From Hydnum rufescens UP504 (lineage: Eukaryota > Basidiomycota > Agaricomycetes > Cantharellales > Hydnaceae): a stretch of 64,000 nt of DNA. The first letter of the stretch is position 1. The number at the start of each line of letters is the position of its first letter. This document shows positions 1,304 through 63,242 of the stretch, piece after piece. The position numbers and the translations under genes are program-made. Below the pieces are notes generated by a model. It was not told the DNA's origin. It searched no databases and saw nothing but the letters and a program-made list of their open reading frames with translations. The stretch is from positions 230,594 to 294,593 of the forward strand of contig MU128913.1 in the NCBI GenBank assembly GCA_014904985.1. The letters run 5' to 3'.

Positions 1304-2367
1304 CTTGAGTTGTTATCAGATCGTCCTGAATGTACTGGCATTGGAATTCCACGATAAAGGCCTTTCTTCCAAGCCCATATATGAGGGGAGGCATGTAGAT
1401 TACATGACGAAGTGAGGGTAGGAATGAAATATCAGCTCCAAAGTGTGTTGGGAGCTCCTGAAGGTGCAATTCACCACGTATCGGCTCGCCAATGGTACCG
1501 TTGGAAAGCCCTAAATCACAGCTTTCGATCAAGCACAATATCGTATGTTTTGGTGGGGATTTGGCGACGAAGAGGCAGGAGGAGTACAGAGGTGATGAGG
1601 AGATCACCACTCATCTCACTCCTGAGCATGTAGTTCACCTCCAATCGTCTCACAAATGGGACCAATGGAAAGCTGTGATTCACAGCTCCATGTCAAGCCT
1701 ATTATGAAGACAATTGGAAATGAACTCATGGAGATAAGGGGAAAAGGTGGGAAACAGGGCCATAGGAAAGATGAAGCCACTGTGCCCCCAATACCCACCA
1801 AAATGCGTGATATAGGGCTTGTTTGAAAGCGTTGATTCAGGGCTTTCCATCAGGCATACGAACGCAACTAATACGACAATTGTGCTACTCCCTGAAACCA
1901 CACAGAGGTGATAATAGGGACATGGCGACAATTAAGGACCCTGGTATGCCACCCTCCAGAAACCTCACAGAGGTGGTTTCTGGGTGTTGCAGTGGTCCAT
2001 CCCCCCCTCTTGTGCTACTCCCTGAAGCCACACAGAGGTGGAAACAACAGGGGAATGGTGACAGCTAAGGACTCTAGTATGCCACCCTCCAGAAACCTCA
2101 CAGAGGTGGTTTCTGGGTGTTGCAGTGGTCCATCCCCCCCCCCTCTCCCCTAAAAATAAAGTTCTAATGCACCTATCACACCAAAACCACGCAGAGGTGG
2201 CTTATGGCAGTGATAGGAATTGACACCCAGAGGGGTGTCCCCAGACCTCTTGTTGATCAGGATGGAATGTGCTCAAGTCACTGTCCACTCAGAGGTGGAC
2301 AGTGACCTTGTGCAACATTTCCTAAGGCAGCAGCTATGGGGATTGATGCCAGATCAGTAAAAATCAA
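1304..2367. repeat. Internal segment M of F1, copy 1
   Basis: This segment, starting at CTTGAGTTGTTATCAGATCG, is repeated in the same orientation at about 3977-5041 with small indels. It holds short hairpins that share the core CAGAGGTGG, described separately. Open frames in both directions are short, overlap and are not conserved between copies, so I treat them as chance. Confidence 0.75.
1870..2350. repeat. Run of short hairpins with a shared CAGAGG loop/stem core
   Basis: At least five short inverted repeats follow one another. Clear ones are CCAGAAACC...GGTTTCTGG (around 1957-1985 and again around 2089-2117), TGTCCACTC...GAGGTGGACA (around 2285-2305) and GACACCC...GGGGTGTC (around 2221-2240). 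Each is centred on an A(C/T)(A/C/G)CAGAGG-like core. The series is repeated at about 4560-4980. Confidence 0.6.
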
Positions 2368-2410
2368 AAGATAGTGCAAAAGAGCTGCACTAGGCAGCTC
2401 TTTTGTTGAA

Positions 2411-3637
2411 AAAACTGGTCAGCAGGTGCCGAATTCATTACATAATACGTATGTACAGTAGTCAAGTACTGATCGGAATCGGCTGCGGACCCAATCCGCT
2501 GACACTCCCACTCGCAGCGATAACGATCGGGCAGGGGTGTACCAAATAGGACAGGGGAAGGGGGGGGGAACAAGATCAAAGGATAGAATAAAAGGGGGGG
2601 GTTGGACACAACTGGTCTAAATTAGGAGGTGAGGAGAAAAGGATATGCTCCCACTGAAGCAGAAATGAGTCGAAGGAATGAAAATGAAATTTGCTCCCAC
2701 TTGAGCAAGAAGACAGAAAAGGCAAGCAGTAACTCCCACTGGAGCAAATGAGTTTGCATGAGCAAGACAAAAAGATGAACAGGTAAAAGGAAAAAGGCAG
2801 CAAGATTAAGAATTATACTCCCACTCAAGTAAAGACTCAAGTACCATAGATTAATAAATCCCCAACAGTAGCGGGTACCACGAGCCGAGCCCAAACACCC
2901 TCGTGCGAACCGGAAGAACGACGGTAGATGTCTTGATGATGTCGTGTGCCGCAAGCCAGATATCCAAATCCCCTGCGCGCACCCCGATCGATGAGCCGGA
3001 TCCATGGCAATCCCCTCGCCCAGGCACCACCTCCATCCCACCCAAAAGACCCTATAGTAGGTCACCCAAGAGTCGCGAGCCAAGTCCGGAGACTTCCTCA
3101 CACACATCTCAAAATAGTGTTCTGGTCCAGGGCCAGAGCCCACCCAAACACCCAACTAAATACTCCACCTCACCAACATGGCACAACGGCAATAGAAAAT
3201 CCCCGAAAAGGACACGGGTATGACGGTCGCGGTAGACATGGGATATGGGTTCACGAGCACGGGTAAGGTTGCCAGTAGAGGTTTCCCCAAAGAACAGGTA
3301 CTCCCAGGTATAGGCAGGGTGCCCCCAGATGGACCACAGAATAGTCGCACAGTTTAGACATGGAAAAGGAATGAACGACGGGTTTTCAGACATGGTATTG
3401 ATGTCGCGGACTATGGCACAGTTCGTCCAGACAGTCACGGGTTCAGTCACGGTAGAAAGGCTCGATTGAGTCACGGAGCCAGTGGACTCGCACAGTTAAC
3501 GGTATAGCCCTTAGGAAATGGATGGGCCCATAACCTGTCAAAAAAAACTGGTCGGCGGGTGCCGAATTCATTACATAATACGTATGTACAGTAGTCAAGT
3601 ACTGATCGGAATCGGCTGCGGACCCAATCCGCTGACA
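2411..3637. mobile_element. TRIM-like unit: two ~93-bp direct repeats around a ~1-kb interior
   Basis: A block starting near CTGGTCRGCRGGTGCCGAAT and ending CCAATCCGCTGACA occurs at about 2411-2504 and, in the same orientation, at 3541-3637. Trimmed to TGGTC...TGACA, the repeats begin TG and end CA as LTRs do. The interior codes for no recognisable retroelement protein. I did not find a convincing primer-binding site, polypurine tract or target duplication, so TRIM is only one reading. An alternative is a segmental duplication inside the foldback F1, in whose loop it sits. Confidence 0.4.
2870..3474 (-). pseudogene. Possible captured gene fragment, not recognised
   Basis: The interior of the TRIM-like unit has higher GC and more CpG than its surroundings. 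On the minus strand it shows open stretches of protein-like composition, such as LNCATILWSIWGHPAYTWEY (3474 frame) and, in another frame, DIWLAAHDIIKTSTVVL. They would have to be joined across a frameshift or intron. I do not recognise a family. A captured and decayed host gene fragment is an inference from composition and position only. Confidence 0.25.
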
Positions 3638-3638
3638 T

Positions 3639-3750
3639 CTTTTGGCACCAATGTATATACTAGGTAGCATATACTTACCTTACTTCCACAGCCCAGGGTG
3701 TGGAAGTAAGGTAAGTATATGCTACCTAGTATATACATTGGTGCCAAAAG
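3639..3750. repeat. Near-perfect 112-bp palindrome
   Basis: CTTTTGGCACCAATGTATAT at 3639 is matched by its exact reverse complement ending at 3750. The arms are about 50 bp and the loop is a few bases around AGCCCAGGG near 3695. It lies at the junction between the TRIM-like unit and the inner right arm of F1, and directly next to an AAAAGAGCTGC...GCAGCTCTTTT hairpin at 3745-3772. A small foldback (MITE-like) insertion is likely. Confidence 0.8.
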
Positions 3751-3976
3751 AGCTGCCTAGTGCAGCTCTTTTGCACTATCTTTTGATTTTTACTGATCTG
3801 GCATCAATCCCCATAGCTGCTGCCTTAGGAAATGTTGCACAAGGTCACTGTCCACCTCTGAGTGGACAGTGACTTGAGCACATTCCATCCTGATCAACAA
3901 GAGGTCTGGGGACACCCCTCTGGGTGTCAATTCCTATCACTGCCATAAGCCACCTCTGCATGGTTTTCTGTGTGGC

Positions 3977-5041
3977 GCTTGAGTTGTTATCAGATCGTCC
4001 TGAATGTACTGGCATTGGAATTCCACGATAAAGGCCTTTCTTCCAGCCCATATATGAGGGGAGGCATGTAGATTACATGACGAAGTGTGAGGGTAGGAAT
4101 GAAATATCAGCTCCAAAGTGTGTTGGAGCTCCTGAAGGTGCAATTCACCACGGATCGGCTCGCCAATGGTACCGGTTGGAAAGCCCTAAATCACAGCTTT
4201 CGATCAAGCACAATATCGTATGTTTTGGTGGGATTTGGCGACGAAGAGGCAGGAGGAGTACAGAGGTGATGAGGAGATCACCACTCATCTCACTCCTGAG
4301 CATGTAGTTCACCTCCAATCGTCTCACAAATGGGACCAATGGAAAGCTGTGATTCACAGCTCCATGTCAAGCCTATTATGAAGACAATTGGAAATGAACT
4401 CATGGAGATAAGGGGGGAAAGGTGGGAAACAGGGCCATAGGAAAGATGAAGCCACTGTGCCCCCAATCCCCACCAAATGCGTGATATAGGGCTTGTTTGA
4501 AAGCGTTGATTCAGGGCTTTCCATCAGGCATACGAACGCAACTAATACGACAATTGTGCTACTCCCTGAAACCACACAGAGGTGATAAATAGGGACATGG
4601 CGACAATTAAGGACCCTGGTATGCCACCCTCCAGAAACCTCACAGAGGTGGTTTCTGGGTGTTGCATGGTCCCATCCCCCCTCTTGTGCTACTCCCTGAA
4701 GCCACACAGAGGTGGAAACAACAGGGGAATGGTGACAGCTAAGGACTCTAGTATGCCACCCTCCAGAAACCTCACAGAGGTGGTTTCTGGGTGTTGCAGT
4801 GGTCCATCCCCCCCCTCTCCCCTAAAAATAAAGTTCTAATGCACCTATCACACCAAAACCACGCAGAGGTGGCTTATGGCAGTGATAGGAATTGACACCC
4901 AGAGGGGTGTCCCCAGACTTCTTTGTTGATCAGGATGGAATGTGCTCCAAGTCACTGTCCACTCAGAGGTGGACAGTGACCTTGTGCAACATTTCCTAAG
5001 GCAGCAGCTATGGGGATTGATGCCAGATCAGTAAAAATCAA
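3977..5041. repeat. Internal segment M of F1, copy 2 (same orientation as copy 1)
   Basis: This is a direct repeat of 1304-2367 lying between inverted arm sequences. At its left edge it joins inner-arm sequence (CCACCTCTGCATGGTTTTCT), and at its right edge (near 5041) it joins the inverted outer arm. The direct orientation implies that one copy was flipped after the foldback formed. Confidence 0.75.
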
Positions 5042-20595: not shown

Positions 20596-22480
20596 TCATC
20601 TGATGTTCAAAAATTGAAACCAAACACAATGGACCTGCCAGAATGTAAGTATGGGCTTTGTAGTGGGGGCATGCTTTGCCAAAATATACACCAGATATTC
20701 ATCATCAATACTTGTGCTTTCATCATCTTCATCATTGCTGTCAACAAGGCCAAGCATAATGTGTGCATTTTCAGAGAGTGCAGTTGTTGAGCTTGTGGGC
20801 AGAGTCATAGTCAGAGTTTTTTCCCTATACTTGCTGAGCTGAATAAATAAATATTTTGAGTCAGAGTCAGTACCAAGAGACACAGGATGACTTGCCTCCT
20901 CTTTGATCCATTCTACTGCTGTCTCCTGTTCTATTGGGTCCCAGCTCTTCATAATGAATGATAACTTGATATTTGGATTGAGAGCTGCATGAATCTCATT
21001 AATATAAGATGAAGCACAATATGAGTGAAAGAAAATATGAATGAAAGACAGCACACCCATTGCAACCACATATGTGCAAGTCTTGCCAGCCCTCTTGTGG
21101 TGTTTGTTCAGCCACTCCATACCCTCAAATATGTACTCTGAAATGTCCTTGTTTGCTATTGCATGGTCCTGCCACTGATTCTGAAGGGACTGGAAAGCTG
21201 GTAATGCACCACTGAGGATTGGTGTGGCCTTGCTGGACATCAACTGCTGGACTGAGTGTGGGTACTACAAGTTTTTCACATCAGTCACTGAAAATGAGAC
21301 AGTTGAAGGCATACTGCTAAGATCTCGCATATTTCCATTTTCCACTCAGCATTTGTTAGGTTCTTGGTTTGGAGATTGTGATATTTGTGTCATTGAAACA
21401 TTGCTGCCAATGCCTAAGATGAAAATCAGTGAGATAGCATATGATGAATCCTCTCCTTGAACTTACTGGTCATGCCAGTATCACTCTATGCAACATCCCA
21501 TATTGCAAATCCCATCTCATATCAATGTCTTGAAGCAATTCAAGTTCAGGCACATGTGGAATAAATTCACCCTCCTCATTGCCTTTTTGATGGTCTCTTG
21601 GAAAGCTATGTGATGGTCATTTGATGTTCTCATGGCATGGACAAGTGTGCACAGATGGCCCAAAATATCACCCTGAGGAGCTTTCTTCAGGTGTGTGAGC
21701 ACATGCTGAATGGAGATATTGATTATATGGGCAAAACATCTGAGAGGAGGATATTTTGCTTGTTAGCACAATAGACAGGTGAAGCAAATAAAATTTACTG
21801 ACTGAATCCTGTTGTCATCAGCTGAGAATTGAATACCCTCCACTTTTAAGATTTTTTCAAACTCCACCATAAACATGTTGTTGTGACTGGCATTGTCAAG
21901 TGTCCACCACCCAATCTAGTTAGTTATTTTAGATGAGTTAAACAGTCTCAAGACCCTGGAAAAGGGACATCTCTCATGGGGAGGAAGTCATGTTCTGCAT
22001 GCACCTTATGTAGGATATTGACATGTTCAAGCATATGCTTTGTAATGTCACAAAGAGATTTTCTGTCATGACTTCTGGGGATATAGTGGAAAGCAATCAG
22101 GTCAGCACAGAGTTTTAGTGTCTGATCTTTGTGGCATTGTATCCAGTGTGCAGTGATGGCCAAGTACAGGCAAAGTTGGCTATCTGACCATATATCTGCT
22201 GTGAATGAAAATTTCCCAAGGGAACCCTAATGTATCAAGCAAGTCTAGTAATGAGCACACTTGAGAACTCATGAATATGACTTACTGAGATCTTTTTTCA
22301 GCCTATTAAATTCTTCAAGCCATTTCTTAAAAATTGCACTTTGGACTGCTGTATGCCTCTGTATGTCATTGTCAGCCAGATCCTCATTCATATAATGTAA
22401 AAGGGTGTGGAACTTGGGACACTTGATCACATCTAGAGACTAGAGGAATGATTTGAACTCATGCCTCATTAGGCAGGTTG
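20596..22480 (-). pseudogene. hAT-family transposase relic (minus strand)
   Basis: Read from 22,480 leftward, the order is that of basidiomycete hAT transposases. KCPKFHTLLHYMNEDLADND comes first (the segment before the catalytic core), then KFSFTADIWSDSQLCLYLAI with the first catalytic Asp and TAHWI (about 22,210-22,130). A LIAFHYIPRSHDRKSL segment follows, then CFAHIINISIQHVLTH and RTSNDHHIAFQETIKK (21,702-21,517), then WDLQYGMLHRV. Last come a long intact frame (21,243-20,596) with CASSYINEIHAALNPNIKLS, the helical region preceding the dimerisation domain, and an acidic linker. Stops and frameshifts break the upstream half. No intact terminal repeats were recognised. It lies directly beside foldback F2. 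Confidence 0.8.
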
Positions 22481-22868
22481 GTCAGTCACATGGGGGACCT
22501 AATTTAGGTACCACTTTTGGGGCAGAAAATGGTACCTAATAGGTCCCCCAAACCTTACAGCTGAAATCAGGCCATTTCAATTCAGTTTTTTGGCCATCTG
22601 TCAGCCAATCCATGGCTGTGCTATATTATATACTTATTTATTATTGTTTGTTTACTATTTATTATTATTATTATTATTATTACTACTATTATTATATACA
22701 TATTATACTATATACATATTACCCCCCCCCCCCTGGGGGCTGGTTCCCTTTGGGCACTCCCTTGAGGGAGTTGGTTTTCACTTGTGGGGGCTCATTTGCA
22801 GATATCATTCATGATGTCTCATTCAGTGGGTTCATAGTTGGGGATTTGGAGGGGTTCTGGTTCAGGAT

Positions 22869-23025
22869 CTAAAGAAACAATTGATGAAACATTAGTAGAA
22901 CAGTAATGCAGTGCAAAAAGAGCTGCTTATGCTGCTCTTTTTGCACCACAAGAATAAGAAATGAAAATAAAAAATAAAAAAATACCTTGTAGTACCCCAC
23001 ACCTGCTGCAGGAGTGTGGGGTACT
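22869..23025 (-). other. Hairpin/intron module ii-1
   Basis: On the minus strand: hairpin B (GTACCCCACAC...GTGTGGGGTAC, 22,993-23,025), then CTACAAG|GTATTT donor-like site at 22,985, hairpin A (GCAAAAAGAGC...GCTCTTTTTGC, about 22,909-22,947), CTACTAATG branch-like and TTTAG acceptor-like at 22,869. Implied intron about 117 nt. Confidence 0.6.
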
Positions 23026-23159
23026 GGGGCTGTGTACTTTGGGTCATACATACAGTGGTTCATACAGGGTCCTCTCTGTGCCCTGTCATTCAGGCATTGA
23101 TAAGTGGGTTGTGGGGGGGGGGGTTCACATCAGTATTTGCTTGCAAGAGAAGTTGAGAC

Positions 23160-23310
23160 CTACAGGATAAGAAATTTAAATCAGTTAATAATTGAACACC
23201 ACACAAAAAGAGCAGCTTTCACTGCTCTTTTGCATGGGTGTAGCTACTGGGTGGGACAGGGACTCACCTTACATAGGACCACACACCTGCTGGGGTGGGT
23301 GTGTGATTCC
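23160..23310 (-). other. Hairpin/intron module ii-2
   Basis: On the minus strand: hairpin B (about 23,276-23,310), TGTAAG|GTGAGT donor at 23,267, hairpin A (AAAAGAGCAG...CTGCTCTTTT, about 23,205-23,234), TTAACTGAT branch-like and CCTGTAG acceptor-like at 23,160. Implied intron about 108 nt. Confidence 0.6.
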
Positions 23311-23571
23311 TGGTGCCCACATTAGGTGGGGGTGTGTCCTCATTCACCATGGTTGCATCCCCATTTGATGCAACCATGTCCTCATTTGGTGTGGCACTGC
23401 ATGTCACATCCTGGGCATGTTGGCATGGCATGTTGCATTGGCATGGCATGTTGCATTGGTGTGTCACGTTGTGTTGGTGTCATGTTGCATTGCATTGCAT
23501 TGGCATGTTGTGTGGGTGTTTGGGCTCTGGCCGTTTTGTGGGTTACCATTGTGTGTTGGATGAGGGCCCAG

Positions 23572-23722
23572 CTAGAATAATTAAAAGCACATTAGTAAAA
23601 AATTTGAAAGCAGCACAAAAAGAGCAGCTTTTGCTGCTCTTTTTGCACTGATGTATCTACTACAATTCATAAAAAAACATACCTTGTATGACCACACACC
23701 CACTGCTGTGGGTGTGTGGTCA
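23572..23722 (-). other. Hairpin/intron module ii-3
   Basis: On the minus strand: perfect hairpin B (GACCACACACCCAC...GTGGGTGTGTGGTC), ATACAAG|GTATGT donor at 23,682, hairpin A (GCAAAAAGAGCAGC...GCTGCTCTTTTTG, about 23,612-23,646), TTTTACTAATG branch-like, and an acceptor in ATTCTAG at 23,572. Implied intron 111 nt. Confidence 0.65.
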
Positions 23723-23781
23723 TCTATGCCTGCCTGTCTAGGTGGTTTCCTGTTCAGTTGATGTATGTGCATTTTAATCAA

Positions 23782-24118
23782 CTCAACACTGGCAATTGCC
23801 AGATCCCCAAAAGTGCTCAAGTGCCATCACCACAAGTACCATCTAAATTAATAGCCAGTATATAGACAAGGAATACATTATTATGTAATATATATTCTCC
23901 CAAACGACAACAAAGACAACCATAGTAGGTCAGAGCTCAATGAGGCATGAAATGCCTCATTGAGCTCTGACCTACTATGGTTGTCTTTGTCATCTTTTGG
24001 GGAAATATATATTACATAATAACATATTCCTTGTCTATATACTGGCTATTAATCTAGATGGTACTTGTGGTGATGGCACTTGAGCACTTTTGGGGATCCA
24101 GCAATTGCTGGTGTTGAG
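23782..24118. repeat. Central palindrome of F2
   Basis: CTCAACACTGGCAATTGCCA at 23,782 is matched by its complement ending at 24,118. The arms are about 165 bp and the centre lies at GAGGCATGAAATGCCTC near 23,950. Modules on the left point left and modules on the right point right. The same arm end (CTCAACACCGGCAATTGCCA) bounds the central palindrome at 63.24 kb, and a degenerate version lies at 41,260. It may be a MITE in its own right or the folding nucleus of the giant element. Confidence 0.75.
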
Positions 24119-24171
24119 TTTTGTCCTCACATGCTGACAGGCAACCACCTACAAAGGAAAGGCAAGCAGAC

Positions 24172-24308
24172 AACCACACCCGCTGCTGCAGGTGTGGTCA
24201 AAAGGTGAGTTTTTTATACTAGTAGATACAACAGTGCAAAAAGATCAGTGAAAGCTGCTCTTTTTGCACTGCTTTGAATTTCTTTACTGACCACATTGAT
24301 ATTCCTAG
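24172..24308 (+). other. Hairpin/intron module ii-4
   Basis: Hairpin B (ACCACACCCGC...GCAGGTGTGGT), CAAAAG|GTGAGT donor at 24,205, hairpin A with one mismatch (AAAAAGATCAG...CTGCTCTTTTT, about 24,233-24,270), TTACTGACC branch-like and TTCCTAG acceptor-like at 24,308. Implied intron 104 nt. Confidence 0.65.
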
Positions 24309-24515
24309 GTCATGGCCTCATCCCAGGCACCAAACAAGGCCCTGCCAAAGGACGAGGCCCAACTGCCCAGGTCCTAAACAGCAACATGCAAACTGAAAAC
24401 AACCTGAAAACAACCCAAATGAAGCCACACCAAATGAAATGGTGCCAAACAAAACACCACCAAGCAAAATGCAACAGGATGCAGAGGTGGCTGCATGCTG
24501 ATGGAGTGGCCACAT

Positions 24516-24648
24516 GAACCACACACCCACTGCAGTGGGTGTGTGGTTCTATATAAGGTAAGTGCACCCCCAATGGTGCAAAAAGAGCAGCAATGCTGCT
24601 CTTTTTGCACCCATTTTAATTTTTTTAACTAATGATTTATTATTCTAG
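24516..24648 (+). other. Hairpin/intron module ii-5 (best preserved)
   Basis: Perfect hairpin B (GAACCACACACCCAC...GTGGGTGTGTGGTTC), ATATAAG|GTAAGT donor at 24,558, hairpin A (GGTGCAAAAAGAGCAGC...GCTGCTCTTTTTGCACC, about 24,575-24,612), TTAACTAATG branch-like and ATTCTAG acceptor-like at 24,648. Implied intron 91 nt. The four signals match fungal intron consensus closely. Confidence 0.7.
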
Positions 24649-24790
24649 GCTAGCAACAAATGAAGACCTGTAGAATGAGCCCCCCTGAATGATAACCCAC
24701 CTGCAAAATGAGATTTGCAAATGATGAGGTGCCAAATGAAGAAATCAAGTGACACCAAACCATAGGAACCCCACACCTGCTATCACAGTG

Positions 24791-26169
24791 TAAGCAGGAT
24801 GGTTATAAACCAATCCAACTACTGTCCACAAGGTTGAGCCAGGGACAAAGGAGGGAATCACAGATCTAATCCAGTTGTTCAGGTTCGAGTGGGGGAAGGT
24901 CTTTTGAACAGGGGAAATTGCAGTGAGCCAACAAAGCCCAAGCAATTAAGTGAGAATGTGTGTTTGAGTCAAATTACCACACCCTAAGAATCTCTTCTTG
25001 AGACCTTAGTCAAAGTGTAGTTAGAATTTGCTTTTTGTAGTGAGAAATCACCCAGGGACCAGCAGCTGTTCAAGGAGCTTCAAACTGGAGGGAGGGGGAG
25101 AACTACTGAATTTGTGTGCTAACTGCACCTAATATACAATCCAGACTTTGACTCAATAAAAAGTGAAAAATTCGGACTTAAGGGACAGACAGAGAAAAAG
25201 AAATCAAGTTAAAATATTCAAAACTGATGGAGATATTCCAATTTCAAGATAAAAGGGGAGATTGACACATTACATGCTATTCCTCCTTCAATTCTGACAA
25301 GTTCCCTTAAGGAAAAGTAGAATAGGTCGCCCTGGGGGTCTTCTCCATTGGACATAAGAGGGCCAGAAGTAATTCACTATTTTGAATGGTGGAGCAAAGG
25401 GGGAGTCATGGGGAGGGAGTTGTCTTGTGAAAAATGGAGTTCGCATCCACTCATTTTGCCCTTGGTACCGTTCGAAGCACATTTTCAACAGCTTTCAGGG
25501 GCGTGGTACTCGTGAATGAATCTGATAATAATTGGCTTTGAAAATCAAGAAATACTCCTTCAGAGTATGAATCATGGCAAGATATTGTTACAGGGACCGC
25601 ATTTTTGATCCGTTCGTTTTGTGTTTGGTACTGTTCGATAGGTACAATTCGTATATTTCTGGGCGCGGTCATTCTGAGTCGATCCGATCAAAACTGATGG
25701 AGAAATTAGAAAAATACTCCTTTAGAGTAGTGCTGCCCCTATCTGGATCATGTGATGGATCCACAAGTCCAGAATTGGAACTAGGCCCGGTCTGCATCGC
25801 TACATAATCACAATTCATCGCCCTTAAGGCAGTAGGATGGATTGGAAGAACAGACAAGCCATACAGTCTTGAGGAAGAATGGCAAGTTGAATTGCCTTGT
25901 CCAAGGAAAATGGACTTGATGTGGGGCATAAACTGCCCCCTTTTGAAGAGGACTGTTGAAGTCTGACAGATAGTCAATAAATTGACTGGTGGACATGGTA
26001 AGGGAATGAGGTGATATTATGAGCTGGAAAGGGGTAGGAATCCAATTGATTTCTTGAATAAACAAATGATGATAAATTTAAATGAGTGTGGTGACATATA
26101 ATTGATTCATTTGAAAGGGAAATAGGCCTCAGATGAGGATTCTATGGTGTAGGGATTTATCCCTCCAAC
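24791..26169. repeat. Dispersed repeat D2, copy a
   Basis: About 1.38 kb, starting TAAGCAGGATGGTTATAAAC and ending TTTATCCCTCCAAC. An inverted copy lies at 46,605-47,982. The middle (25,430-25,760) holds sub-repeats with GGTACCGTTCGA, TTTCTGGGCGCGGT and CCGATCAAAACTGA, which resemble those in repeat D1. It has split a hairpin B: CCCCACACCTGCT lies just left of it and AGTGGGTGTGGG just right, and joining these restores a stem of the usual kind. Class unknown; a solo LTR is possible, but there is no second copy flanking coding sequence. Confidence 0.7.
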
Positions 26170-26292
26170 AGTGGGTGTGGGCTCTATAAAAGGTAAGTAA
26201 TGCACCCCTGAGGATGCAAAAAGAGCAGCAGCCATCGCTGCTCTTTTTGTGTTCATTTAAATTTTTAACTAACAAATTATTTATTATTCTAG
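26170..26292 (+). other. Hairpin/intron module ii-6 (hairpin B split by D2)
   Basis: Half hairpin B (GTGGGTGTGGG), TATAAAAG|GTAAGT donor at 26,193, hairpin A (GCAAAAAGAGCAGC...GCTGCTCTTTTTG, about 26,216-26,250), TTAACTAAC branch-like and ATTCTAG acceptor-like at 26,292. Implied intron 100 nt. Confidence 0.65.
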
Positions 26293-26439
26293 GTTATTGC
26301 CTCAACCACCCACCCTCCCCCAGGAATGACAACAAACCTGCCAAACAAGAGCCACAAACATGACCCACCCCAGAACATCCACCAGATGAAACCCAAGAAT
26401 GGGAATGCATGACACAAGACCACAAGGACCCTAGACAAG

Positions 26440-26574
26440 CCACATGCCCACTTTGGCGGGTGTGTGGTAATTTCAAGGTAAGTATGATCATGCAAAAGGA
26501 GCAGCATAGCTGCTCCTTTTGCATGGCCTCCTTTCCCCTCTCTTTTTTTACTAATCCATTATTTGTTATGCTAG
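26440..26574 (+). other. Hairpin/intron module ii-7
   Basis: Degenerate hairpin B (CACATGCCCAC...GCGGGTGTGTGG), TTCAAG|GTAAGT donor at 26,478, hairpin A (ATGCAAAAGGAGCAGC...GCTGCTCCTTTTGCAT, about 26,491-26,526), TTACTAATCC branch-like and TATGCTAG acceptor-like at 26,574. Both arms of hairpin A carry AAAAGGAGC / GCTCCTTTT where other copies have AAAAAGAGC / GCTCTTTTT, so the stem is kept by a paired change. Confidence 0.65.
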
Positions 26575-26719
26575 CTTTTCATCTGAACCCATGGCCCCGC
26601 CAAACAAACACACGAGAATGGCAGCCCACCTGCCAAACAAACTACCTGCCCAAATGATGAACAGGCCTCATATGCACAACTGAGGCCAAAGACAAATGTG
26701 TGACCACAGTAGAAAACAA

Positions 26720-26857
26720 GTACCACACACCCACTGAAGTGGGTGTGTGGTACTACAAGGCATCTTTTTATTTTATTTCTATATGTACAGCAGCACAAGC
26801 TGCTCCTTTTGCATTGCCACAAATTTTTTTTTTTGCTAATGTACAGTATTATTCTAG
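26720..26857 (+). other. Hairpin/intron module ii-8 (GC donor, half hairpin A)
   Basis: Perfect hairpin B (GTACCACACACCCAC...GTGGGTGTGTGGTAC), CTACAAG|GCATCT where GT is expected (a C in place of T gives a GC donor), only the right half of hairpin A (GCTGCTCCTTTTGCA), TTTGCTAATG branch-like and ATTCTAG acceptor-like at 26,857. A decaying module. Confidence 0.55.
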
Positions 26858-26954
26858 ACTCCAAACCAGAGCTCCCAAAATGATGACCCACTGCAATGGC
26901 GACCTGCAACTTGTCTGAATGACCCACCCAATGGTGAATCACCAAGCCCAGCCC

Positions 26955-27235
26955 CCTGTACCACACACCCACCCTAGTGGGTGTGTGGTGCAACTAAGGA
27001 CCTTTTTTTTTAAATTTCAATGGATGGCACCACACATCTGCCCAAGTGGGTGTGTGGTGCTACCTAGTAGTTTTTTTTTTTGTTGATTTGTATGGATGTA
27101 CCACACCTGCCCTAGCGGGTGTGGTACCTTTTTTTGATTTATATGGATGGTACCACACACCTGCCCTAGCAGGTGTGTGGTGCTACTAAGTACTTTTTTT
27201 TGAGATCTATGGGTGCTACCACACCCACCTAAGGA
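26955..27235. repeat. Ladder of four to five hairpin-B units without introns
   Basis: Hairpins of the form ACCACACACC...GGTGTGTGGT recur at about 26,960, 27,030, 27,097, 27,150 and (half) 27,217, each followed by 20-35 nt with a T run and GATTTRTATGGATG. The spacing is about 60-70 bp. Donor, hairpin A and acceptor are missing. The ladder sits next to the right end of F2. Confidence 0.65.
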
Positions 27236-27509
27236 TGGTTCCTTTTAATTGAATTTTTGAATAAATATAAATGGAACACATTATCCCCGATAAGCCCATA
27301 TGGCCCACTGCAAGTCTCAGATTCTTAAGTCCCAGTTTCAACCAATTTTTGGCCAATTTTCAGCCATTTTAGCCAATTCTGGGCCAGGAGGTGAAATCAT
27401 AAAAATGGCCATTTCAGCTGGAATAGTGATGGGACCTACTTAGGTACCATTATCTGCCCCAGAAGTGGTACCTAACTAGGTAGGCTTAGATAACTGACCA
27501 AGGTGGAGT

Positions 27510-37850: not shown

Positions 37851-38109
37851 TGCAGCTACAAATCAGCCTGGTCAGCCATATAGAGGGGCCTTAAAAGGAG
37901 GGACACGTTGATGACTTAGGTAGGCCTAAATGGCTGAAATCAAGTTTGATGTCAAGTGATGATCAAAAAGCTGAATTTGACAACTGGCAATTACAATTTG
38001 ACAATATTTTGACATCAAGCAATGTCAAGTGCCTCATTTATGGGCACTTTGCAAAATCTCAGTCAACAAAATTAATAATTAATATATACACCAGATATAC
38101 TGTATAATA

Positions 38110-41100
38110 AAAATGCCTAAATGTGGTAATCAGATAGCCCAATGGGGATGGGTGCATTAGATAATATCCCATTACATTATACAGTATTTCCTATTTTAAA
38201 AAATGCCTAAATGTGGAAATTGGATGAAGTGCATCCAAAAAACATTTAGGCATCCAGCCCAATGGGGGCCCAGGACCAGGGGGAGGTGCCTGGGATAGAT
38301 GGATGGGCCTCTAGGGACCCCAATAGAGTGAAAAAATCAGGCCCAGGGCCAATGATTAGTGCCTGAAACAATGAGACCAGTAAAAACATCACAGGAACCA
38401 CCGGAACTTGCTGAGAAATAAGTGCTGGGCAGATTGCTCTGAAATTTGGCATGTGATTAGAGATTACCTCAACGCAAATTATATAAAAATTTCAGCCGAA
38501 TTCATGCATAGGTTATGGAGATATGAAGGAAACAAGTCTGGACATTAAAAATTCATTTCCTCCCCAAGAAAAATAGCTGGGGACTTGAAAATTTGCACAG
38601 AGCATAAGGACACAATGTACTAATTATGTGCAAAACATGAGCCCAATCTACCTACTTTAAGGGAGTGAACTGGACAATAGGTACCAGAAGCACTGGAAAT
38701 TGCCAAAATGTAAGGAGTGCAAGTATCACTCTGAAATTTGGCATGTGATTAGATACTGTTTAGGAAAAGACCATATAAAAATTTCAGCCATATCTACTCA
38801 GAAGGTACAGAGATATGAGGGAAAGAGGTTTAAACATTGAAAATCAATTTACTCCCCCAACAGACAAGGTATGGACTTGAAATTATACATGGGTTATGAT
38901 CATATAATTAACTAGCCATGTGCCAAAAATCAGCATATTCTGTTTACTTCTAGACATTCAACTCCCTTTTCAGGCAAAAAGAGAACAACAAGCTACTATG
39001 AATGTTAAACACTTTAAATTACACCCAAAATAGGTGTAATAGGCTTATAATATTATAGCCCTGACTGTATCCAAAAATGGAATTAATTGGATGTGTGGAA
39101 GTAGCTTAAATTGAGGGGGAGGGGGAGGAAGATCAAAAGTGAATTACATAAGATGTAGAGCAGGGGTGGCTCTGATATTACACCACTGAGTTAATACATA
39201 TATGGGGAGTGTACATGCCAGATATCAGCCCAACTGGACTCCATTTAGGCAGTGTTCCACAGGCCTCCCCCCTAAACAACAATTTCCTCCCCAGAGCCTT
39301 CTATCCATGTAATTCCCCTGAAAATGCACACTTGGGTCATCCAAACACATCTATAGCATTCCTCAAAATTTCAGATTTATAACTTCAGTGTTAGAGTCTC
39401 CATAATATTTTCAAGTTTCACTGAGATACACCTCCAGTTGGGACACTTCCAGGACTCCAATCACTTTGAATTTTTGTAGGTCACACCTGCTCATTATTTG
39501 AGGCTCAGCCCAAATTTTCAGCCCATTCTGAGCACTTTTGACATGTGTCACATGACCAAGATCTTCCCCTCCCCCTGCTTCACTCAGTGATCCAATTTTG
39601 TGTGGACTTTGTTTCCATCTGTAGTAGTAGTGTGTGACAGTGCATGATTCAAATTTCAGGAGATTCCATGCAATATTGATTGAGTTATTCAAGAAACATT
39701 CTAGATCAATTCAATTTGGGGTCGAAACAGCGGTATTTTAGTGGAAATACTGCTGTTCTGACCCCAAATTGAATTGATCTAGAATGTTTCTTGAATAACT
39801 CAATCAATATTGCATGGAATCTCCTGAAATTTGAATCATGCACTGTCACACACTACTACTACAGATGGAAACAAAGTCCACACAAATTGGATCACTGAGT
39901 GAAGCAGGGGGAGGGAAGATCTTGGTCATGTGACACATGTCAAAAGTGCTCAGAATGGGCTGAAAATTTGGGGCTGAGCCTCAAATAATGAGCAGGTGTG
40001 ACCTACAAAAATTCAAAGTGATTGGAGTCCTGGAAGTGTCCCAACTGGAGGGTGTATCTCAGTGAAACTTGAAAATATTATGGAGACTCTAACACTGAAG
40101 TTATAAATCTGAAATTTTGAGGAATGCTATAGATGTGTTTGGATGACCCAAGTGTGCATTTTCAGGGGAATTACATGGATAGAAGGCTCTGGGGAGGAAA
40201 TTGTTGTTTAGGGGGGAGGCCTGTGGAACACTGCCTAAATGGAGTCCAGTTGGGCTGATATCTGGCATGTACACTCCCCATATATGTATTAACTCAGTGG
40301 TGTAATATCAGAGCCACCCCTGCTCTACATCTTATGTAATTCACTTTTGATCTTCCTCCCCCTCCCCCTCAATTTAAGCTACTTCCACACATCCAATTAA
40401 TTCCATTTTTGGATACAGTCAGGGCTATAATATTATAAGCCTATTCCACCTATTTTGGGTGTAATTTAAAGTGTTTAACATTCATAGTAGCTTGTTGTTC
40501 TCTTTTTGCCTGAAAAGGGAGTTGAATGTCTAGAAGTAAACAGAATATGCTGATTTTTGGCACATGGCTAGTTAATTATATGATCATAACCCATGTATAA
40601 TTTCAAGTCCATACCTTGTCTGTGGGGGAGTAAATTGATTTTCAATGTTTAAACTTCTTTCCCTCATATCTCTGTACCTTCTGAGTAGATATGGCTGAAA
40701 TTTTTATATGGTCTTTTCCTAAACAGTATCTAATCACATGCCAAATTTCAGAGTGATCCTTGCACTCCTTACATTTTGGCAATTTCCAGTGCTTCTGGTA
40801 CCTATTGTCCAGTTCACTCCCTTAAAGTAGGTAGATGGGGCTCATGTTTTGCACATAATTAGTACATTGTGTCCTTATGCTCTGTGCAAATTTTCAAGTC
40901 CCCAGCTATTTTTCTTGGGGAGGAAATGAATTTTTAATGTCCAGACTTGTTTCCTTCATATCTCCATAACCTATGCATGAATTCGGCTGAAATTTTGATA
41001 TAATCTGCGTAGAAGTAGCATCTAATAAAGTACAAAATTTTAGAATGATCTGCTCAGTGGGTATTTGGATGTACCTCATCCAATTTCTGCATTTAGGCTT

Positions 41101-41215
41101 TTTTTTAATAGGAATCATTGTATTATGTAATTGGCTATGATCCAAAGTTATTATGGAGTATCATATAATCCACCCTTTTATATTGGTCTATCTAGTTAGT
41201 GCATTTAGGCTTTTC
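38110..41215. mobile_element. 3.1-kb palindromic foldback
   Basis: ATGCCTAAATG near the left edge (38,113 and 38,204) mirrors CATTTAGGCTTTT at the right (41,090 and 41,205). The arms of about 1.5 kb match closely up to a centre near 39,743 (CAGCGGTATTTT...AAATACTGCTG). Each arm holds two diverged tandem units of about 245 bp with GGCATGTGATTAGA and ATAAAAATTTCAGCC. Open frames are mirror images of each other and not convincing. It resembles large foldback transposons that lack coding sequence. Confidence 0.75.
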
Positions 41216-41352
41216 ATAGCAGCAGGTGGCTTGCCTTTGAAACTGGGCAACTGCCAGTGTTGAGTCCTGGGTTCAATTTACCAGCAATTGCTGGAAATTT
41301 TTTTCTGCTGTGTGACACCATCACCTTGATCTACCAAGAGCCCAGGACAAGC

Positions 41353-41496
41353 CACCACACCCCAGTATAGACTGGGGTGTGGTGTTAAGGTATGTTATTA
41401 TGATCTTAGCTACTCTAGTGCAAAAACGGCAGCCTCTGGCTGCCCTTTTTGCACACTATTGATTTTTTTAACTAACCTGTTGACCCCCCATTATAG
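41353..41496 (+). other. Solitary hairpin/intron module
   Basis: Perfect hairpin B (CACCACACCCCAGT...ACTGGGGTGTGGTG), TTAAG|GTATGT donor at 41,390, hairpin A (GTGCAAAAACGGCAGCC...GGCTGCCCTTTTTGCAC, about 41,418-41,453), TTAACTAACC branch-like and TTATAG acceptor-like at 41,496. Implied intron 107 nt. Hairpin A has partly compensated changes relative to other copies. A degenerate CAATTGCTGG / CAACTGCCAGTGTTGAG end precedes it, as in the two giant foldbacks. Confidence 0.6.
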
Positions 41497-42119
41497 GATC
41501 CCTTAAGTGCTCACCCAGGGGCCCCCATCCCCTCTGGTGGCCCTCTGACCCTGTCCCACCCCTCCAGTTGGTCTGGGGCAGGGGTGCCCCCTCTTTTTTG
41601 CATGACTGGCACATGAGTGCTGGTCATGTGACCTATATTATATAATTAATTAGGTAGTAGTTAGGTAATAATTAATTAGATAATATGTATATTAGGTAAT
41701 ACATATTATATAATATATTACATAATACTATTAATGTGTATGATTATGTCACCACTTTTCAGGTGAATTACATAATTTCCTATTTAGGCTATTATGTAAT
41801 TACATTTCCATATTGGGAATCAACAGGCCCACTGACCCATTCAGGTGTGTCTCTGGGCATTCCAGGACCTATCCTGATACCTCCAACCAAATATATCCAT
41901 ATGCTTCTGCTCACAGTGTTTGATTCTGCTCCAGAAAGATGGCCAGATGTCAATTTGACATCCAAGGATTGTCAATTGACATCAAAGAAAAAATAGGCCT
42001 CTTAGGCTGACTAGATGAGGGATTTGTCCCACCTATTAAGGTCAGCCCAAGTGGCTGACTGAGGTGCTACAAATTGGGATGCTGCTGACACATTTGATGT
42101 CCATTTACCAGTGTGTGAT

Positions 42120-50969: not shown

Positions 50970-52645
50970 CACCTAATGCACCCTCAAAATAGTACCTCTT
51001 AGGTGGTTTGAGTTTGCATCTGCAAACCACCTAAGAGGTGTTCTGAGTATAGGCATGTCTAAGACACGTGTAAGGGGTATTTTTGGGGAAATTTTTTTCT
51101 AAGTTCACTATATAGACATGTCTAAAATAGCCCACCGCAGGCGCCAGCTGGGAGGGTTTGTTCACTGGCTGGAGAGTGTTACAGGTCTAATTTAGGCATG
51201 TCTAATAAGATATTTTATGGAGCCTTAGAGGTGTCTATCATCCTTACTGTGTGTCTACTGGTGTCTAAATCAACATTTTGAGCCCAAGACCTCTGGTGGC
51301 AGTACTAATAGGTGTCTAATGTTGTCTAGATCCAATAATAATGGTGCTATTGTGGATGCATGTCTACTAGTGTCTAAATTAGAACAAAGGCATCTGCTCA
51401 GGGGGAGATCATTAGACATGTCTAGAGATGTCTAGAGATGTCTAGGCATGTCTAGACATGTCTAGACACATCTAGTCATGTCTAGACATCTAGTCATGTC
51501 TAGACACATCTAGTCATGTCTATAGTCATGTCTAGTCATGTCTATAGTCATGTCTAGACACATCTAGTCATGTCTAGACACATCTAGTCATGTCTAGACA
51601 CATCTAGTCATGTCTAGACACATCTAGTCATGTCTAGACACATCTAGTCATGTCTAGACACATCTAGTCATGTCTAGACACATCTAGTCATGTCTAGACA
51701 CATCTAGTCATGTCTAGACACATCTAGTCATGTCTAGACACATCTAGTCATGTCTAGACACATCTAGTCATGTCTATAGTCATGTCTAGACACATCTAGA
51801 CATGTCTAGACACATCTAGACATGTCTAGACACATCTAGACATGTCTAGACACATCTAGACATGTCTAGACACATCTAGACATGTCTAGACACATCTAGA
51901 CATGTCTAGACACATCTAGACACATCTAGACATGTCTAGACACATCTAGACATGTCTAGACATGTCTAGACATGTCTAGACATGTCTAGACATGTCTAGA
52001 CATGTCTAGATGTGTCTAGACATGTCTAGATGTGTCTAGACATGTCTAGATGTGTCTAGACATGTCTAGATGTGTCTAGACATGACTATAGACATGACTA
52101 GACATGACTATAGACATGACTAGATGTGTCTAGACATGACTAGATGTGTCTAGACATGTCTAGACATGCCTAGACATCTCTAGACATCTCTAGACATGTC
52201 TAATGATCTCCCCCTGAGCAGATGCCTTTGTTCTAATTTAGACACTAGTAGACATGCATCCACAATAGCACCATTATTATTGGATCTAGACAACATTAGA
52301 CACCTATTAGTACTGCCACCAGAGGTCTTGGGCTCAAAATGTTGATTTAGACACCAGTAGACACACAGTAAGGATGATAGACACCTCTAAGGCTCCAGAA
52401 AATATCTTATTAGACATGCCTAAATTAGACCTGTAACACTCTCCAGCCAGTGAACAAACCCTCCCAGCCGGCACCTGCGGTGGGCTATTTTAGACATGTC
52501 TATATAGTGAACTTAGAAAAAAATTTCCCCAAAAATACCCCTTACGCATGTCTTAGACATGCCTATACTCAGAACACCTCTTAGGTGGTTTGCAGATGCA
52601 AACTCAAACCACCTAAGAGGTACTATTTTGAGGGTGCATTAGGTG
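50970..52645. mobile_element. hAT-like foldback with decamer array, copy 1 (1.68 kb)
   Basis: The ends are inverted: CACCTAATGCACCCTCAAAA and TTTTGAGGGTGCATTAGGTG. They are flanked by the 8-bp direct repeat TACTTGTG (50,962-50,969 and 52,646-52,653). An 8-bp target duplication is the hallmark of hAT transposition. The arms match for about 450 bp, and each end also folds on itself (CCTCTTAGGTGGTTT...AAACCACCTAAGAGG). The centre is an array of TCTAGACATG-type units. No coding sequence. Likely a non-autonomous element moved by a hAT transposase. Confidence 0.85.
51415..52203. repeat. TCTAGACATG / TCTAGACACA decamer array, copy 1
   Basis: About 79 consecutive ten-base units. The basic unit joins two palindromes, TCTAGA and CATG. 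Higher-order 20-bp units (TCTAGACACATCTAGTCATG, then TCTAGACACATCTAGACATG) fill the left half. The right half uses the complementary forms, so the whole array is itself an inverted repeat centred near 51,940. Confidence 0.9.
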
Positions 52646-55538: not shown

Positions 55539-58500
55539 CACCTAATGCACCCTCAAAATAGTACCTCTTAGGTGGTTTGAGTTTGCATCTGCAAACCACC
55601 TAAGAGGTGTTCTGAGTATAGGCATGTCTAAGACATGTGTAAGGGGTATTTTTGGGGAAATTTTTTTCTAAGTTCACTATATAGACATGTCTAAAATAGC
55701 CCACCGCAGGCGCCGGCTGGGAGGGTTTGTTCACTGGCTGGAGAGTGTTACAGGTCTAATTTAGGCATGTCTAATAAGATATTTTCTGGAGCCTTAGAGG
55801 TGTCTATCATCCTTACTGTGTGTCTACTGGTGTCTAAATCAACATTTTGAGCCCAAGACCTCTGGTGGCAGTACTAATAGGTGTCTAATGTTGTCTAGAT
55901 CCAATAATAATCCAATAATAATCCAATAATAATGGTGCTATTGTGGATGCATGTCTACTAGTGTCTAAATTAGAACAAAGGCATCTGCTCAGGGGGAGAT
56001 CATTAGACATGTCTAGAGATGTCTAGAGATGTCTAGGCATGTCTAGACATGTCTAGACACATCTAGTCATGTCTATAGTCATGTCTAGACATGTCTAGTC
56101 ATGTCAATAGTTATGTCTAGACATGTCTAGTCATGTCTAGACACATCTAGTCATGTCTATAGTCATGTCTAGACACATCTAGTCATGTCTATAGTCATGT
56201 CTAGACACATCTAGTCATGTCTATAGTCATGTCTAGCCATGTCTAGTCATGTCTAGACACATCTAGTCATGTCTATAGTCATGTCTAGCCATGTCTAGTC
56301 ATGTCTAGACACATCTAGTCATGTCTATAGTCATGTCTAGACACATCTAGTCATGTCTATAGTCATGTCTAGACACATCTAGACATGTCTAGTCATGTCT
56401 AGACACATCTAGACATGTCTAGTCATGTCTAGACATGTCTAGACATCTGTCTAGACACATCTAGACAATACATATCTAGACATCTAGAATCTAGACACAT
56501 CTAGACATCTAGACACATCTAGACACATCTAGACATGTCTAGACACATCTAGACATGTCTAGACACATCTAGACATGTCTAGACACATCTAGACATGTCT
56601 AGACACATCTAGACATGTCTAGACACATCTAGACACATCTAGACACATCTAGACATATCTAGACACATCTAGACATGTCTAGAACATTATCTAAGGACCA
56701 TCTTACTTCTAGACATGTCTAGACCATTCTAGACACATCATAGATTTCTAGACACATCTAGACATGTCTAGACACATCTAGAACATTCTAGACACATCTA
56801 GACATATCTTAGAACCTATGAATGCTAGCTTATGGACACAGTCTAGAACATGTCTAGACATGTCTAGCTCTAGACACATCTAGACCATTTTAGAGACATG
56901 TCTAGACAGTCTAGACACTAGACATCTGACACATCTATGACATGTCTAACATGTCTAGAACACATCTAGACACATCTAGACATGTTCTAGCACTGTCCTA
57001 GACATTTTCGTAGACGATGACTAGACATGTCTTAAGATGTGTCTAGCCATGTCTGACCATGACTAAGACATTGGGGCTAGATGTGTCTAGACTGTCAGTA
57101 GACATGTCTAGACATGTCTAGATGATGTCTAGACATGACTTAGGATGTGTCTAGACATGTCTAGACATTACTAGCACATGGTCTAGACATGACTAGATGT
57201 GTCTAGACATGTCTAGACATGTCTAGATGTGGTCTAGATGTGCTCTAGACATGTCTTAGATGTGTCATAGACATGTCCTAGGACATGTCTAGATGTGTCT
57301 AGACATGTTCTAAGACAGTGTCTAGACATGTCTAGCACATCGGTAGACATGTCTAGACATGTTCTAGACACATCTAACATGGTCTAGACATGTCTGACAC
57401 ATCTTAGACATGTTCTAGGACATGTCTAGACACATCTAGACACATCTAGACATGGTCACACATGTCTAGACACATCTAAGTCAGTGGTTAGACATGTCTA
57501 GTTCATGTCTAGACATGTCTAGACACATCTATCATGTCTAGACACACTAGACAGTGTCTATTACATGTCTAGACATGGTCCTAGACACATCTAGTCATGT
57601 TCTAGTTCACTGGTTTCTGACATGTCTAGACACATCTAGACACTGTGCTAGTCATGTCTAGACATGTCCTAGACATGTCTAGGACACGGTCTAGATGTGT
57701 CTAGGATGTGTCTAGACATGTCTAGACATGTTAGATGGGTTTCTGATGGATGTCTAAAATGTCTAGATGTGTCTAGCATGTCTTGATGACATTGTCTAAG
57801 GATGTTTAGATGCTGTCCGTAGACATTGTCTAGACATGTCTAGTGTGTCTAGATTTATTCTAGACATGTCTAGAATGTGTCTAGATGCCTGTCCTAGATG
57901 TGTCCTAGACATGTCTAGATAGCTTCTAGCACGACATGACTAGACATGGCTAGACATGACTATAGACATGACTAGAGTTCTAGACTGACTAGACATGTCT
58001 AGACATGACTATAGACATTGACTAATGTGTCCTAGACAGTGCACTATCAGACATGTACTAGATGTGTCCCTAGACATGACTAGACATGTCTAGACAGTAA
58101 CTATGACATGACTAGCATGTCTAGACATGACTATGTAGACATGACTAGATGTGTCTAGACATGTCCTAGACATCTCTAGACATCTCTAGACATGTCTAAT
58201 GATCTCCCCCTGAGCAGATGCCTTTGTTCTAATTTAGACACTAGTAGACATGCATCCACAATAGCACCATTATTATTGGATCTAGACAACATTAGACACC
58301 TATTAGTACTGCCACCAGAGGTCTTGGGCTCAAAATGTTGATTTAGACACCAGTAGACACACAGTAAGGATGATAGACACCTCTAAGGCTCCAGTAAAAT
58401 ATCTTATTAGACATGCCTAAATTAGACCTGTAACACTCTCCAGCCAGTGAACAAACCCTCCCAGCTGGCGCCTGCGGTGGGCTATTTTAGACATGTCTAT

Positions 58501-60540: not shown

Positions 60541-61330
60541 TCAATGTGTCAACCAGTCCAGGAGGTCCGTTGGAGATTCCGTGAGGAACTGGGTGGTCCT
60601 AAATGGTATGGATGCAAACTCCAAGGCATTAATCTGTCTCAGGGCCTCCGGGTGAGTTTGGTGGAATTCCTGAATGGCCTCTGGAGCATTCTCCAGGTTG
60701 GCTTTGGGGACCCATTCATTGTCGGAAGCCGGGTACCATTTCCATTTCACTAGGTACTGGAGTTTTCAGCAGAAATACCTGGAATTTTCGATTTGCTTGA
60801 CTTTGTACTCCTCTTCACCTCTGCATAAGATTGGAGGTGGTGGGGGTGAGTTGTGCGCTCTGCAATCGGGTCTGGTTGGAAGGGGCAGAGTTTGGAAACA
60901 TGGAACACTGGGTGGATATGGATGGAGGCGGGGAGTTTGAGACAGATGGCAGAGTGGGAGATGACTTTATCAACCTTATAGGGCCCAAGCCATTTGTCGG
61001 AAAGCTTTTTGGTGGGGCATGTCGGTGGAGATATCACATGCATCCAGCCAAACTTGGTCGCCAATTGTGTATTCCAGAGCATCCGTGTGGTGGGTGTCGT
61101 AGAAGTGCACCATGTCTTCAGCAGCCTTCCGTAAGGCGGCCTGGGCTTCATCTGTAGCCTTCCACATCTGAGTGATGAAGTCTGAGGCAGCCTCAATCAT
61201 CCCAGAATGGACTGGCTCAATGCCAAGGCGAGGGTCCTGTCTGGAGTCTAGCCAGAATGGGGTCTGGCATGTAGAGGAGTGCACACAGTTGTTATATGCG
61301 AATTCCATGATAGGGAGCCATTCCCAGTCT
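60541..61330 (-). pseudogene. Ty3/gypsy pol 3' end: integrase C-terminus and chromodomain (right arm)
   Basis: Read from 61,330 leftward: DWEWLPIMEFAYNNCVHSST, FWLDSRQDPRLGIEPV, then helical QMWKATDEAQAALRKAAEDM, GDQVWLDACDI (frame at 61,308). In a second frame come KKLSDKWLGPYKVDKVISHS and IHPVFHVSKLCPF (GPY/F module), then the chromodomain LVKWKWYPASDNEWVPKANL. Frame changes and one TGA between the chromodomain halves disable it. That TGA stands where other chromodomains have Arg, consistent with CGA-to-TGA decay. The 5' end is cut at 61,330 by the terminus of foldback F3. Reverse transcriptase, RNase H and most of integrase are absent from the window. Confidence 0.85.
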
Positions 61331-61808
61331 GGTCAGCCAATTATCAGTATCTAATTAGATACTTCAAAGGTTGCATTTATATGGTCTAACTAGATATCAG
61401 ACCTGGGGGCCCCCAGGGGCCCCTGCAATTCAATCAAGGGGGCTGGTCAAGCAGCCCAGGGGCCCCTGGGGCCCCTAGCCATGGATTATTTATTTATTTA
61501 TTATTATTATTATTACTACTACTATTATTATATACAATGATAGGCTCGCCCAGTGGGGCTCACCCATGCGCCCAAGAAGAACAGCCAGAGGCTGCTCTTC
61601 TTGTGCGATCACAGCCAAAGAAAAAGCCTCACCTTCATGTGGGGGGGGGGTTTGGCTTGGTTCCCCGGGTTTGGGGTCGTGGGGTTCAGCTCGGCGGGTT
61701 TGGGGTCGTGGGGTGGGTCGCGGGGTTCGGCTCGCCAGATCTTCAGTTCGCCGGGTGTTCGTTTGGCAGGTTTGGGGTCGGGGGTTCATGTGGATTCGAG
61801 TCCAAGAT

Positions 61809-61941: not shown

Positions 61942-62031
61942 TTTATATTCCCTGTGTATGGTCAGCCTGGGTTTCGAGATGTGGGGTCGTGGGGTTCTCG
62001 CATCAGCATTCACTCACGTGAAGGTGAAGAC

Positions 62032-63195: not shown

Positions 63196-63242
63196 ATCTT
63201 TCCTTCTTTGGGTGGTTTCCCTGTTAGGTGGTGGTTGTCGAG

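Follow-up and report, generated by a model that had tools for sequence, protein, structure and literature searches.

Foldback DNA transposons of Hydnum rufescens with arrays of predicted introns bracketed by two hairpins

We analysed a window of 64,000 nucleotides (nt) from Hydnum rufescens UP504 (contig C5, MU128913.1, positions 230594 to 294593; assembly of 63.2 Mb in 539 contigs), a fungus described as ectomycorrhizal (PMC7550596). Within it lies a foldback element, element 1, which holds eight modules built from two hairpins, B and A, with a splice-donor position between them and a candidate acceptor beyond. Its features, with positions counted from the first letter of the window, are listed here.

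About 22474-27505, no strand: foldback element 1, holding the modules of 22869-26857 (ends by eye)
22872-23025, minus strand: module 1, with B at 22991-23025, AAG/GTATTT at 22985, A at 22911-22946, acceptor about 22872 (by eye)
23160-23307, minus strand: module 2, with B at about 23278-23307, AG/GTGAGT at 23267, A at 23206-23231, acceptor about 23160 (by eye)
23572-23723, minus strand: module 3, with B at 23688-23723, AG/GTATGT at 23682, A at 23616-23645, acceptor 23572
23780-24120, no strand: central palindrome of element 1, with 169-nt arms that are 93% complementary
24173-24308, plus strand: module 4, with B at about 24173-24198, donor 24205 GTGAGT, A at 24232-24271, acceptor 24308
24516-24648, plus strand: module 5, with B at 24516-24549, donor 24558 GTAAGT, A at 24575-24611, acceptor 24648
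26165-26292, plus strand: module 6, with donor 26193 GTAAGT, A at 26217-26249, acceptor 26292
26435-26574, plus strand: module 7, with B at about 26435-26466, donor 26478 GTAAGT, A at 26489-26525, acceptor 26574
26719-26857, plus strand: module 8, with B at 26719-26754, donor lost (AG/GCATCT), A half-deleted, acceptor 26857
26958-27181, plus strand: hairpin B in four copies that lack both donor and A, with T-runs in between

The original prediction, made from the letters of the window, had described a single order of signals recurring eight times between 22869 and 26857. All eight modules are present, but they do not run in one direction: to the left of the palindrome at 23780-24120 three lie on the minus strand, to its right five lie on the plus strand, and all point away from it. 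The donor GTRAGT, which had been assigned to the repeat as a whole, occurs in five of the eight, the others reading GTATTT, GTATGT, and GCATCT, the last of which amounts to no donor. Both hairpins were found whole in most modules rather than in all, as B is split by an insert in one and the last retains half of A. The predicted spacing of 91-117 nt from donor to TAG agreed with what we measured, 104, 91, 100, and 97 nt in four plus modules and 111 nt in one minus module. The split hairpin is that of module 6, its left half lying near 24769-24788 (by eye). The insert occupies about 1.4 kb of the right arm, from 24786 to about 26150 (far end by eye); over 801 nt it shows 92% identity with sequence close to a gypsy-like element beside L009, one of the loci that we fetched (L numbers), and is perhaps a solo long terminal repeat. 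The ends of element 1 read CAGGTTGGTCAGTC and, as reverse complement, CACCTTGGTCAGTT, with TGGTCAGTC as a related end form, and its end region (TGGTCAGTCA...GGACCTAATTTAGGTACC) was found again in L015 and L017. No target duplication was recognised at element 1.

The splice signals were assessed in modules from the fetched loci and from the window below 60 kb; the loci had been picked around hairpin A or element ends, and the sample represents the foldback family, not the whole genome. Among 143 oriented B-A pairs, 84 had GTRAGT in the gap between the hairpins, while shuffles averaged 2.3 and never exceeded 7 and the opposite strand had none; this bears out the claim that the order of signals and hairpins is too regular for chance. 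Clustering 142 of these pairs at 80% identity left 67 clusters, and in these GTRAGT was present in 41, a branch sequence plus YAG in 58, and both in 34, against 0, 5, and 0 on the opposite strand. Shuffles that kept dinucleotides approximately gave means of 6.0, 20.4, and 1.9 and maxima of 12, 28, and 8 for the same three counts. With GTRNGT as the donor, 41 of the 67 clusters had the complete set. Donor, branch sequence, and acceptor follow one another in the order of a U2 spliceosomal intron, and the introns predicted for the 34 full-signal clusters measure 90-125 nt. A further donor motif lies within hairpin B itself in 62 of the 67 clusters (GTGTGT in 53, GTGTGG in 9). Transcription and splicing of the modules are predicted as probable. 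A conceptual spliced frame led to 12 deposited BS47DRAFT hypothetical proteins whose exons are joined at the predicted acceptors, and three further short deposited models (P0091-P0093) were found with an approximate query sequence.

The stems of the hairpins were chosen by a hairpin finder that demanded at least nine net pairs, so that the pairing statistics are conditioned on that choice and favour the outer pairs. There were 62 distinct representatives of hairpin A and 66 of hairpin B; a hand-aligned subset held 47 A and 28 B, with near-duplicates, short forms, irregular stems, and some imperfect ones left aside. In this subset 98.6% of cells were paired in A and 97.1% in B; changes on both sides of the stem occurred in 12 of 20 pairs of A (84 cells, shuffled mean 23) and in 10 of 19 pairs of B (34 cells, shuffled mean 11). 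On four of the five measures of compensatory change none of 500 shuffles scored as high; the fifth, the number of pair types, was reached by 137 (A) and 9 (B) of the 500. Pairing fell to 27-64% in controls in which the pairs were slid. A recount over 13 core pairs of the even-length stems gave 98.6% pairing and 45 both-side cells in 11 pairs for A (59 of 62 representatives), and 96.3% and 40 both-side cells in 9 pairs for B (62 of 66), 17 of the 40 lying at a decaying CpG.

Two further foldback elements lie in the window.

37864-42066, no strand: foldback element 2, with target duplication CTACAAAT; one module found
38416-41066, no strand: palindrome of element 2, 97% complementary over 2656 aligned columns
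41353-41496, plus strand: the sole module found in element 2, with B at 41353-41384, AAG/GTATGT at 41390, A at 41418-41454, CTAAC, and TAG about 41496 (by eye)
61325-64000, no strand: foldback element 3, running on to about 66025 in C5 (1325-6025 of L009), with target duplication GCCATTCC
63244-63899, no strand: central palindrome of element 3, with 327-nt arms

The flank of element 3 is gypsy-like pol sequence (recognised by eye), and for this reason its ends, CAGTCTGG... and CAACTCAG..., are plain. Target duplications of 8 bp were found at four copies: GCCATTCC at L009, CCACCATT at L029, and GGTTACCA at L013, these three by eye, and CTACAAAT at element 2. The empty site of the L009 insertion, that is, the joined flanks with a single duplication, was uninterrupted at 39 of 40 scored places, with 84-97% identity, 29 of them over 70 of 70 nt and 10 over 67 nt; the fortieth was the right flank of L009 itself. 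The long inverted arms fold on themselves. In each of 13 elements the two arms of the central palindrome share 89-99% identity; between subfamilies the figure is about 60-84%, and inside a single subfamily 93-98%. The exact sequence GCAAAAAGAGCAGC occurs 2085 times forward and 2058 times in reverse in the genome, and 0 times when read backward as a control. We conclude firmly that this is a family of foldback DNA transposons; the repeated unit is an internal part of them, not a collection of free introns. The original prediction was right to place the repeat within a foldback; what it had missed is that such a foldback is a mobile element, a transposon bounded by inverted ends and 8-bp target duplications, that its modules run both ways, and that hairpins outlast the loss of a donor.

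Some other observations concern palindromic DNA in the same sequences. At L027 957-6120 a DIRS-like element (tyrosine recombinase, reverse transcriptase, and gag-like frames, by eye) stands between two sets of foldback modules, in the expected place of the central palindrome. The window carries long arrays of a 10-nt repeat, TAGACATGTC, at 51413-52202 and 56004-58198; they form large palindromes and are each flanked on both sides by a 46-nt hairpin (ACCTCTTAGGTGGTTTG...). At 2277-4980 there are three repeats of hairpins of the form GTCACTGTCCAC...GTGGACAGTGAC, and a stem resembling A, CAAAAGAGCTGC, lies at 2377; this is perhaps another foldback of similar kind. Rfam searches with L009 and L034 returned 24 rows at E up to 1, most on the central palindrome and none at the gathering score, and no Rfam family was assigned. 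The exact hairpin A pattern had 0 matches in viral contigs.

Transposases of the KDZ (Kyakuja-Dileera-Zisupton) superfamily are abundant in this genome, which has undergone a very large KDZ expansion: a first look gave 584 candidates in 63 Mb, and at least 154 matches came from the best 150 of the 584 that were scored, many of the listed candidates carrying in-frame stops. For L033 and L034, Pfam KDZ and CxC1/CxC2 were confirmed. The exact left end CAGCCTGGTCAGCC occurs 198 times in the genome, and 0 times in the backward-read control. When the first 100 of the 198 ends were compared with the KDZ matches listed, a KDZ domain lay within 4 kb inside the end at ten places (C12, C19 twice, C56, C66, C67, C103, C130, C133, and C142), every one transcribed toward the end (by eye), and outside it at three (C97, C123, and C130). 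These KDZ genes beside the same 14-bp end are the basis for regarding the foldback elements as probable non-autonomous KDZ elements. The first 100 nt of element 2 are 94-96% identical to the ends of the KDZ loci L032, L033, and L034; a connection of the array-type elements with KDZ is argued from their terminal 14 bp, the length of the duplication, and the common architecture. A target duplication of 8 bp is given for Zisupton and a Dileera, and one of 7 bp for Kyakuja, in PMC12730594, and the duplications found here fit the first two and not the third. None of the KDZ elements obtained had both ends: L032 and L033 contain long runs of N, and L034 lacked a second exact duplication in the stretch fetched. 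L035, taken as a KDZ element, has a foldback alongside it, and its 5' end did not show. No KDZ transposase was seen in ten arms of five foldback copies, whose longest frames, read without a Pfam scan, were 105-217 amino acids (aa) spliced and at most 189 aa unspliced. There were also 90 matches to the hAT dimerisation domain in the genome, looked over by position only. Mobilisation of the foldback elements by KDZ transposases is likely. They have the end CAGCCTGGTCAGCC and the 8-bp duplications in common with KDZ transposons, but they differ in having no transposase found inside, a long foldback, a palindromic centre, and tandem intron modules.

The explanation that we favour as a whole, with a probability of about 0.66, is that of non-autonomous foldback elements, moved by KDZ transposases, which carry spliced non-coding arrays of modules. 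The elements are most likely non-autonomous foldback DNA transposons mobilised in trans by transposases of the KDZ superfamily, which would act on TGGTCAGYC-type ends, recognising them, and produce target duplications of 8 bp. A promoter near the edge of the palindrome may drive two outward non-coding transcripts by RNA polymerase II. A conserved GCAATTGCYGGTGTTGAG-like motif lies at either edge of the palindrome of element 1, and with up to 3 mismatches it was listed at palindrome edges in 34 rows from 17 sources (two places being counted in both the window and L009); its putative promoter role is a guess. Each transcript would consist of exon-intron modules multiplied in tandem, and the ordinary spliceosome would remove the introns. 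That element 2 was found with one module points to tandem duplication as the way in which the arrays grew. Hairpins A and B, we propose, stay palindromic in active source copies because the mobility or the expression of the element needs them, and their action would be either at the level of DNA, as palindromes, or in the RNA, as structures beside the splice donor. A more specific proposal is that each module has two tandem donors, G/GTGTGT or G/GTGTGG locked in the 3' arm of B and AG/GTRAGT just beyond it, between which the folding of B would decide, making a self-regulating splice switch in a divergent non-coding gene; we regard this as quite doubtful.

Several observations weigh against the favoured explanation. 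In L009, a member of a young subfamily, 3 of 11 modules lack GT at the donor and were amplified all the same with their hairpins intact; the same three occur in L012 and L030, and two of them were seen in L029. In the deposited gene models, 27 of 33 junctions in modules 3-6 imply a donor inside the 3' arm of hairpin B, 4 of 33 the downstream donor, and 2 of 33 something else (classes read by eye; 34 of 43 rows were from modules 3-6, and 1 row was dropped as a false match). A genomic exon-exon junction, as in a processed copy, was found in none of at least 100 matches, the best 40 of 479 candidates being scored. The left end of the array type has just its first 14 bp in common with the sequenced KDZ loci (one mismatch in L009). 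Selection for pairing in the sense RNA should make G-U exceed A-C among stem mismatches; the ratio of G-U to A-C was 24:20 (B) and 14:19 (A) over all modules, and 21:25 (B) and 13:4 (A) in the representatives, 8 of those 13 lying at one loop-closing CpG, and there was no clear RNA-pairing signature. Finally, in 4 of 10 arms, more than expected, the longest spliced frame exceeds the 95% value of their shuffles, which weighs somewhat against non-coding exons: L009R (174 versus 149), L012R (170 versus 167), L012L (217 versus 155), and L013R (174 versus 159), the last running over Ns.

One alternative is a reading at the level of DNA, in which A and B are palindromes repeated as binding sites for a transposase or a host factor, or as sites of cruciform extrusion, and the splice signals are little-used relics of an ancestral transcript. 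The absence of a clear G-U bias, the intact hairpins of the donor-less modules, the B hairpins that persist without A or donor at 26958-27181, and the dominance of palindromes in the centre and at the ends of the element all agree with it. Against it, branch sequence and acceptor are kept in 58 of 67 clusters versus 5 of 67 on the opposite strand, and the divergent one-module element 2 retains the same order. We think this reading unlikely, if the least so of the alternatives. The decay of the stems is compatible with either level. Among unique B stems with both inner CpGs decayed, 22 of 40 still match, as independent decay predicts, and concerted repair of hairpin B after insertion was rejected on this ground; over all 118 B stems 64 match where 43 are expected, an excess that arises because undecayed stems match. 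Of 134 subfamily variants tallied in the A stem, 118 were matched between the two arms, 117 of them belonging to five types. From the independent decay of the B CpGs and the matched A variants it follows that source copies maintained the pairing and inserted copies were free to lose it, which fits a function for the element at the DNA or the RNA level.

That the elements carry real protein-coding genes with the modules as exons is very improbable. The 12 BS47DRAFT proteins that join exons and the four long frames speak for it; over the ten arms the longest spliced frames are 105-217 aa, where shuffles give 103-112 at the median and 147-175 at the 95% point. Different deposited models, however, read the same exon in all three frames, which indicates that frame-seeking prediction probably shaped them. 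One arm is represented by four near-identical copies; these differ from one another in where the longest frame falls, and of the 30 short indels in their exons 3 have a length divisible by three and 27 do not. The internal exons are A- and C-rich and mostly T-poor. On the mixed frames and the exon indels, with the four long frames as the counterpoint, we rejected coding exons and regard the exons of the predicted modules as non-coding; the deposited proteins P0079-P0093 (NCBI, Hydnum rufescens UP504) are probably mis-annotated exons of foldback transposons.

It is hardly credible that the modules are introners, each B-A intron being a mobile unit that inserts into host genes. The introns are similar and very many, as introners are, but the unit that transposes is the whole 4-5 kb foldback, and the target duplications flank the entire element. 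Hairpins scattered independently of splice signals would have counted against the original prediction; in this biased sample, no genome-wide search for lone introns in host genes having been made, 211 of 212 A hairpins lay within 1 kb of another A or B, and 1 lay farther from any. Chance or a low-complexity artefact of repetitive DNA, suggested by parts that are T-rich and simple, is refuted by the shuffle, opposite-strand, and slid-pair controls.

Foldback/Galileo-type elements and miniature inverted-repeat transposable elements (MITEs) have long inverted arms, internal tandem repeats, and high copy number and are non-autonomous, and the elements described here resemble them in all of these; they differ from both in that their repeat is an exon-intron unit, carries two covarying hairpins, and occurs in divergent orientation. 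The earlier claim also stands that a foldback in which intron signals and two hairpins recur in constant order is unlike known introners. As PMC9860276 presents them, introners have a link to DNA transposons and are repeated introns of the spliceosomal type, as here; they differ in being introns in host genes, not internal to the mobile unit. Pezizomycotine and ascomycete fungi are named there, and neither Basidiomycota nor Hydnum occurs in its main text. Stwintrons are likewise fungal introns that are repeated and similar in sequence, and the title of PMC8469720 calls them internally symmetrical; they differ in being nested introns and not a foldback transposon. Within the literature searched, which left subscription papers outside its scope, we found no description of hairpin-bracketed intron arrays in a foldback transposon.

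As a practical matter, some deposited gene models of this fungus treat foldback elements as protein genes. A high-copy array of hairpin-bracketed introns would offer many natural variants from which to learn how hairpins at the donor, as RNA or as DNA, affect splicing, and the elements pose the question why a non-coding mobile element keeps introns. An intron unit that multiplies inside a transposon may be a possible step toward introners.

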